Below, one piece after another: positions 31,726-60,219 of a stretch of DNA of 64,000 nt. Under the pieces are notes generated by a model. It was given only the letters and a program-made list of their open reading frames with translations. It searched no databases and was not told where the DNA came from. The DNA is taken from the NCBI GenBank assembly GCA_023664865.1, contig JAMPEU010000009.1, positions 50,391 to 114,390 on the forward strand, written 5' to 3'. The translations under genes and the position numbers were made by a program. Numbering within the stretch: the stretch's first letter is position 1; every line of letters begins with the position of its first letter. The DNA is from Butyrivibrio sp. (GTDB lineage Bacteria; Bacillota; Clostridia; Lachnospirales; Lachnospiraceae).

Positions 31726-31889
31726 TCTCATTTCAATAACCAGAGTTTAGTGCCAAAAACAGAAAATTTACTTCGTAAATTATCTGGAACAAAATAAGGA
31801 GCGACTTACCGCTTTTCAGGCATTGGAGCTCCGTTTTTGTACAGATAATTTACGAAGTAAATTTTCTGTTATTCAGCCTAAACTCGTGA
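31726..31889. repeat. Structured intergenic repeat, copy 1
   Basis: Shares the left flank ATTTCAATAACCAGAGTTTA, a near-identical 56-nt core (31787-31842) and the right end AAACTCGTGA with copy 2 at 60100-60204. Here the core is enclosed by a perfect 27-nt inverted pair (31760-31786 with 31842-31868) unrelated in sequence to the arms of copy 2. The core itself folds with GGAGC/GCTCC. No reading frame is convincing. It lies between trhP and trmR. Confidence 0.85.
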
Positions 31890-31910
31890 AAGCAAATAAT
31901 AATTTCGCAA

Positions 31911-56461: not shown

Positions 56462-56610
56462 TGGCATGAACTCATATGTTTTCATGAGTGGCACGCTCCC
56501 GCTCCGTGGAAAATCGCAGCGGTACTAGGTTCAAAAGCTAAAAAACAGCTTTTTCACCAAGGACCGGCGTTTTCCAAGGGCCACTCACAAAAACATATGA
56601 GTTCATGCCA
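56462..56610. repeat. Large nested inverted repeat
   Basis: 31-nt outer arms (56462-56492 and 56580-56610, two adjacent mismatches) enclose further paired segments (GGAAAA/TTTTCC, 56507-56574 region) and a central AAAAGCT/AGCTTTT hairpin (56533-56539 with 56547-56553). The arms begin TGGCATGAACTCAT. It fills most of the gap between uppP and the aminotransferase gene and contains no plausible coding frame. Confidence 0.8.
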
Positions 56611-60099: not shown

Positions 60100-60204
60100 T
60101 CTATTTCAATAACCAGAGTTTATCCAAAATGAACAAAATAAGGAGCGACTTACCGCTTTTCAGGCATGGAGCTCCGTTTTTGTTCATTTTGGACAAACTC
60201 GTGA
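60100..60204. repeat. Structured intergenic repeat, copy 2
   Basis: Same left flank (ATTTCAATAACCAGAGTTTA), core (60131-60185, one base indel and one substitution against copy 1) and right end (AAACTCGTGA) as the element at 31726-31889. Its enclosing arms are a perfect 16-nt inverted pair (60123-60138 with 60178-60193), different in sequence from copy 1. Located between the GH36 gene and the PII-like gene. Confidence 0.85.
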
Positions 60205-60219
60205 CCAGCACATACTACT

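Follow-up and report, generated by a model that had tools for sequence, protein, structure and literature searches.

The two long hairpins that lie between genes at 31.73-31.89 kb and 60.10-60.21 kb of the window (the whole 64,000-nucleotide stretch of Butyrivibrio sp. DNA analyzed here) belong to a repeat family which is read, with a probability of roughly 0.55, as a non-coding, intergenic, palindromic family that is MITE- or REP-like in the broad sense, would be passively spread by a putative enzyme, and would have its arms kept symmetrical probably largely at the DNA level. Spread as a passive element moved by such an enzyme is the most likely course. The family reaches high copy numbers, which differ widely between relatives, is present or absent at orthologous sites, keeps its feet and the edges of its core, and changes its arms on both sides together. 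The original prediction had offered two readings, a hairpin under selection or a mobile element with arms of its own; both find support below, and the interpretation stands in part.

The prediction of two look-alike intergenic hairpins at these places holds; feet, inner stem, loop and ends are common to both (copy 1, locus L029; copy 2, locus L030). A 26-nt core pattern occurs exactly at 31798-31823 and 60142-60167, with 0 matches expected from 100 shuffles. The parts of the two copies are:

31730-31742, plus strand: copy 1, left foot ATTTCAATAACCA with a CCA tail at its end; across the family the left foot is conserved as TTTCAATAACCAGAG
31743-31794, plus strand: copy 1, left arm, from GAGTTTAG to CAAAA, with a nested palindrome inside (inverted repeat I1)
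31760-31786, minus strand: copy 1, nested 27-nt palindrome, left copy (exact match in L029 1466-1492, minus strand)
31798-31832, plus strand: copy 1, core, with inner stem GGAGC (31798-31802) / GCTCC (31828-31832) and loop 31803-31827
31834-31885, plus strand: copy 1, right arm (inverted-repeat search)
31842-31868, plus strand: copy 1, nested 27-nt palindrome, right copy (exact match in L029 1548-1574, plus strand)
31885-31895, plus strand: copy 1, right foot CGTGAAAGCAA
60104-60115, plus strand: copy 2, left foot TTTCAATAACCA
60116-60138, plus strand: copy 2, left arm GAGTTTATCCAAAATGAACAAAA
60142-60175, plus strand: copy 2, core, with inner stem GGAGC (60142-60146) / GCTCC (60171-60175) and loop 60147-60170
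60178-60200, plus strand: copy 2, right arm (inverted-repeat search)
60200-60209, plus strand: copy 2, right foot CGTGACCAGC

Each copy forms a single long hairpin on either strand, at -68.5 and -71.7 kcal/mol for copy 1 (z -12.6 and -14.6) and at -42.2 and -45.1 kcal/mol for copy 2 (z -7.9 and -7.7). The stem of copy 2, previously given as 16 perfect base pairs, actually runs to 23 bp and includes a single mismatch (60116-60138 paired to 60178-60200). The 27-bp arms of copy 1 do pair but are not unique to it: one 27-nt near-palindrome, CAGATAATTTACGAAGTAAATTTTCTG, lies inverted on both sides (31760-31786 and 31842-31868) and has exact matches in 14 of 315 loci, some of them overlapping, with L029 and L120 both being window copy 1 itself. 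This near-palindrome occupies both arms in window copy 1 and one arm only in L018, L020, L027, L073 and L096; L033 is also listed among the family copies that carry it in their arms. The arm at the L020 site is a plain one in the relative G020 (L032), so the palindrome was probably inserted into an existing arm there. The loop of copy 2, which is of the main type, reads ATG CCT GAA AAG CGG TAA on the minus strand (60150-60167). This mini-frame (MPEKR and a stop), which lies on the gene-sense strand and varies synonymously in several ways among loops of the main type, was considered and dropped because the loops of other species lose it.

Within the 3.82-Mb home genome (G000), the core is found at 91 places with up to three mismatches, against 0 for the reversed control, which excludes that there are only two unique copies; a chance origin of the core was likewise rejected, with 0 core matches expected in shuffles. 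A covariance model built from 45 copies gave at least 141 matches with E no higher than 0.01, corresponding to at least 114 places after merging strands, and weak copies may be missed since the best 150 of 1816 first-look candidates were scored. The home genome is a draft with 97% completeness and 5% contamination, and some of its contigs look like a second strain (C8 and C89 align to the window at 87%), so that a few of the counted copies may be foreign to it. The covariance-model search proposed with the original prediction thus returned many further copies with strong covariation, the outcome named there for a structured RNA or MITE, and neither an absence of copies or covariation nor an Rfam or IS match was encountered, IS elements being covered by PF01797 and by pattern only. 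The expectation that no named RNA matches was borne out as well: at gathering score, Rfam matched only tRNA in the window and nothing in six other loci, and with an E-value threshold the additional matches were all weak, scoring far under the gathering cutoffs. A text search of the literature found the letters of the core, their reverse complement and the core of a second family (see below) in no paper of the collection searched, and none of the publications listed by general searches names this repeat family.

The arms change together. Among 81 aligned copies, 97.0% of the 2254 stem cells pair and 279 cells are changed on both sides; two-sided changes occur in 26 of the 28 pairs, on each of five measures the alignment lay above all 500 shuffles, and sliding the partner columns by 1-3 lowers pairing to 36-51%. 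These 81 were drawn from 103 extracted copies, omitting 13 flagged as nested or short (L026 among them, wrongly flagged by the filter), three partial tandem units and six more G020 copies. A further alignment (A3) of 39 copies, 35 from other genomes and four from G000, with some G010, G035 and weak copies omitted, likewise gave 97.0% of 1085 cells paired and 264 two-sided cells, with 0 of 500 shuffles as high; the exception was the count of pairs showing two-sided change (20 vs 17.0), one of five measures, which 10 of 500 shuffles equaled, a point against the main reading.

Such pairing would probably be maintained largely at the DNA level. Single-stranded DNA at the replication fork would fold into the hairpin, and polymerase fold-back (template switching, quasipalindrome correction) would repeatedly copy one arm onto the other, wiping out mutations or mirroring them. 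Any selection for the folded form would come on top of this fold-back copying. Among the effects described for template switching are the making and the keeping of stems (PMC8794818). Several copies are rearranged: right halves with their foot are repeated in tandem at L025 and L088 (also at L084) and left halves at L049, with up to three or more units, and the hairpin is flipped inside its own feet at L031 and L051. The tandem half-copies of L025, L049 and L088 and the two flipped hairpins would be the rearrangements expected from polymerase switching. The site of L051 is orthologous to that of window copy 1 and lies on a probable second-strain contig.

Covariation of this kind could also arise by ordinary compensation in a cis-acting RNA hairpin whose transcript is selected as a terminator, an RNase III site or an mRNA stabilizer after stop codons, an explanation that we consider doubtful. 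According to a simple frame caller, the neighbors of the 95 G000 copies, in the orientation of the element, are minus-minus in 56 cases, plus-plus in 12, divergent in 8, convergent in 6 and unresolved in 13, meaning that the plus strand is antisense to both neighbors in 56 copies and sense in 12, a bias that favors an RNA function; many of these copies lie near an upstream stop codon, and 11 of the 95 overlap a frame of at least 70 codons. Additionally, both window copies have a terminator-like site on the gene-sense strand (1 found vs a mean of 0.1 in shuffles), and a transcribed hairpin would serve its neighbors as a 3'-UTR hairpin or weak terminator. However, the orientation bias (56 vs 12), strong in G000, is inconsistent elsewhere, with minus-minus and plus-plus counts of 4 and 4 of 13 in G010, 2 and 5 of 12 in G035, 2 and 3 of 6 in G020, and 4 and 0 in six other copies. 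Promoter-like sites near copies numbered 1 vs 0.7 in shuffles and 3 vs 0.5. Replication-oriented insertion was considered as the cause of the G000 bias: over 20 regions of 13-20 kb, sense copies ran with most genes of their region in 6 of 9 cases, a small sample.

The kinds of mismatch bear on the same question, given that one selected RNA strand should tolerate G-U and not A-C. In a separate count in G000, the 278 Watson-Crick two-sided cells comprise 176 of transition type and 102 of transversion type, and the mismatches are 46 G-T, 22 A-C and 45 other (G-T over A-C, p 0.005). This G-T excess fits selection on one folded strand and speaks for the RNA explanation and against the DNA-level reading; some strand-specific pressure on the hairpin is thus possible in G000, as far as mismatch counts can tell. 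Outside G000 both mismatches are equally rare: the 35 non-home copies, over 17 arm pairs and 595 cells, have 567 Watson-Crick pairs, 12 G-T, 12 A-C and 4 other. Wobble pairs are rare overall, at about 2%, a share that is low for RNA stems and was counted against the RNA hairpin. Such a low share fits a DNA-level process better than it fits a plain structured RNA.

The original prediction also spoke of private arms. In the home genome the arms are private in a weak sense, as they follow a consensus (AAATGAACAAAA) with free positions; a fuller sense applies in another genus (G396), where ten copies share an arm identity of 0.48 vs a core identity of 0.98-1.00, pair at 0.97 with their own arm vs 0.59 across copies, and follow part of a consensus. 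Arms made afresh from target DNA at each insertion, e.g., by the core landing in the apex of an existing palindrome, could explain why G396 copies with the same core differ strongly in their arms, and the stem base of L082 resembles, by eye, the local sequence at the G020 site. Against such an origin, which is very improbable, stand the arm consensus shared in G000 and partly in G396 and the orthologous copies of G000 and G020, five pairs of which have 27, 25, 24, 21 and 19 of 28 base pairs unchanged. Over the 140 base pairs of these five (L020 was omitted because of its insertion and L049 because it is inverted), 116 are the same, 11 changed on one side, 10 changed on both sides with Watson-Crick pairing kept and 3 changed on both sides with Watson-Crick pairing lost. 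To judge from these alignments, the arms are inherited yet changing in pairs among orthologs. One-sided changes being as common as two-sided ones (11 vs 10) weighs against the reading of a passively spread palindrome with DNA-level symmetry.

Comparison with G020 (94% complete), which covered about 800 kb plus smaller loci, some of them chosen for holding copies, reveals turnover. Both flanks were found for 29 of the 95 G000 copies, which are 27 distinct copies because three tandem units of L088 are one site; the hairpin is absent in G020 at 20 of these 27 and kept at 7 (L010, L020, L022, the plus-strand copy of L049, which is turned round, L068, L075 and L076). A visible remnant is left in G020 at L017, L027, L030 (window copy 2), L086 and L092, and remnants at no fewer than five hairpin-free sites indicate that loss contributes to presence and absence; divergence of the intergenic DNA blurs loss vs gain in this comparison and hid empty sites, and no clean insertion boundaries could be read. 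Also among the 20, the L003 site differs by a large, unclear change, and the site of window copy 1 holds another repeat in G020. At the latter site G010, G006, G004 and G016 show no hairpin, with 8-57 nt between the flank matches.

That other repeat defines a second hairpin family with the core CTAAGTACCGGCGTTTTCCA, found at 133 places in G000 (loci L286-L315 among them). Its members have a fixed middle and long complementary arms, the longest perfect arm ranging from 9 to 42 bp (27 of the 30 fetched loci gave a value), and the arm given for each of L300 and L301 pairs with an inverted copy next to it. An inner terminator-like stem is present, and by eye its variation is also paired. A piece of the second family with 2 mismatches lies at 56557-56575 of the window on the plus strand, and one copy (L269) sits inside the feet of the first family. 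From this layout, a fixed core with differing complementary arms would occur in at least two families of G000.

The family unit measures about 100 bp, and about 130-150 bp with the outer terminal repeats of the fullest copies. In the fullest copies of G010 and G035 and in some of G000, terminal inverted repeats, ATAATTGCRAAACTC ... AGTTTCGCAATTAT, form the outer ends, followed inward by an asymmetric unpaired stretch and by the hairpin in the middle, over 128-150 bp in the nine copies measured of eleven tried. These outer ends are a minority in G000 (left in 20 of 82, right in 11 of 82, as loose matches of which some are surely chance). TA is readable by eye on both sides of L226, L229 and L232, and not of others such as L104; no clean target-site duplication could be read in the copies and sites compared. 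On one strand the family carries CCA 5' and CGTC 3', the reverse of the order in dRS3. The foot 4-mer CGTC is found in 11 of 81 G000 copies, where CGTG is commonest (33 of 81), in 7 of 10 copies of G396 and in 5 of 5 of G336, and the CCA tail of the other foot is preceded in G000 by A in 31, C in 15, T in 7 and G in 2 of 81 (ACCA, CCCA, TCCA, GCCA). GTAG is absent from the foot 4-mers listed at either end, which for the G000 left foot are the 12 commonest.

As for a mobilizing enzyme, the counts of Y1_Tnp (PF01797) matches are 0 for G000, G020 and G004, all of which carry the family, one each in the carriers G010 and G035, and one to sixteen in three genomes in which no copies were found. Spread by a Y1 transposase in the home genome today was therefore rejected. 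A pattern search for an autonomous element bounded by these outer ends, its places read by eye, established none among the matches listed. That the PF01797 and end searches gave neither a mobilizing enzyme nor a clean target-site duplication counts against passive spread by an enzyme. It is quite improbable that the family is a folded single-strand recombination substrate in which, as in attC sites and REPs, a tyrosine recombinase or HUH enzyme reads the hairpin shape and unpaired bases and the arms need only pair; in its favor are unpaired bases that are conserved and asymmetrically placed (TAA opposite G/GT; CCA and CGTS feet) on a stem otherwise largely free in sequence, together with the nearly free arm sequence in G396, and the PF01797 distribution just given argues against it. 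A mobile single-strand hairpin with sequence-free arms, whose fold and few unpaired bases are read by an undescribed enzyme and whose pairing is kept by fold-back recopying without RNA selection, is unlikely.

The distribution of the family is patchy. At E 0.001, 10 of 61 genomes, the home genome included, match the covariance model, with at least 65 matches in G035, at least 59 in G010 and at least 41 in G020 (best 67 candidates scored in each), 8 in G004, 4 each in G006 and G034, 2 in G029 and 1 each in G023 and G060. In an order-wide sample, whose stricter filters lose weak matches, 4 of 392 genomes match at E 0.0001: the home genome, G396 (at least 10, the best 10 being scored), G336 (6) and G131, a weak match taken as an unrelated hairpin because its arms are mostly unpaired in the model alignment. 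Across relatives, feet and core edges (CAGA ... ACAAAATAAGGGG ... CCCCGTTTTTGT ... CGT) are mostly kept and the loops are lineage-specific; some loops of relatives contain a small extra hairpin, GAAATATTTATATTTC (L113, L116 and L218). Within a species both core and loop are strongly conserved, which hints at either some function or recent spread and counts against the main reading. An exact scan of genome contigs for a 19-nt piece of the core gave 9 stretches, 8 of them in the MAG NALB_7961_5 (G020); the ninth, in the archaeon Pyrobaculum oguniense (L036), has no longer core match and was taken as chance. Viral contigs gave no exact 23-nt match and plasmids no match to copy 2.

With more than 100 copies, a near-fixed core and arms at many stages, the upkeep of stem pairing can be tested in relatives mutation by mutation, and the family offers a natural case for how hairpin DNA spreads and stays symmetrical. 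A further lesson is that covariation, usually taken as proof of a structured RNA, may on its own stem from mobile palindromic DNA: here it is very strong, yet outside the home genome wobble pairs are not preferred.

Among known repeats, the family is absent from Rfam and, by its sequence features, appears closest to MITE-like and CGTC-tagged palindromic repeats, sharing parts of the REP- and ERIC-type definitions. In the features described for ERIC, NEMIS/Correia and other MITE-like repeats (PMC2229807), the resemblance lies in a length of about 100-160 bp, non-coding and intergenic placement, a long stem-loop, high copy number and terminal inverted repeats, here in the fullest copies; those descriptions also set it apart, as its arms are nearly sequence-free but complementary, no TA duplication was established and Rfam gave no match. 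Compared with the palindromic candidate structured RNAs described from the human microbiome (PMC8040213), it likewise consists of covarying intergenic palindromes, many of them terminator-like, but by that description differs in being a repeat family with more than 100 copies in one genome. Like the GTAG REPs associated with RAYT transposases, as characterized in PMC3733652, it comprises high-copy extragenic hairpins, often after stop codons, whereas no GTAG occurs among the foot 4-mers listed and no Y1_Tnp in G000 or G020. The same source outlines CGTC-tagged REPs, which share CGTC at one end, a CCA tail at the other and no dedicated transposase found; their stem of 8-9 bp and loop of 4-5 nt contrast with 28 pairs and a loop of about 15-25 nt here (24-25 in G000), and their tag (CGTC or TGTC/CCTC) is unpaired, whereas the first C of CGTC is paired in the present alignment (PMC3733652). 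Its stem and loop sizes depart from those that define CGTC REPs, and the TA duplication of the MITE type was not established; the family is filed as a variant of bacterial intergenic palindromic repeats.
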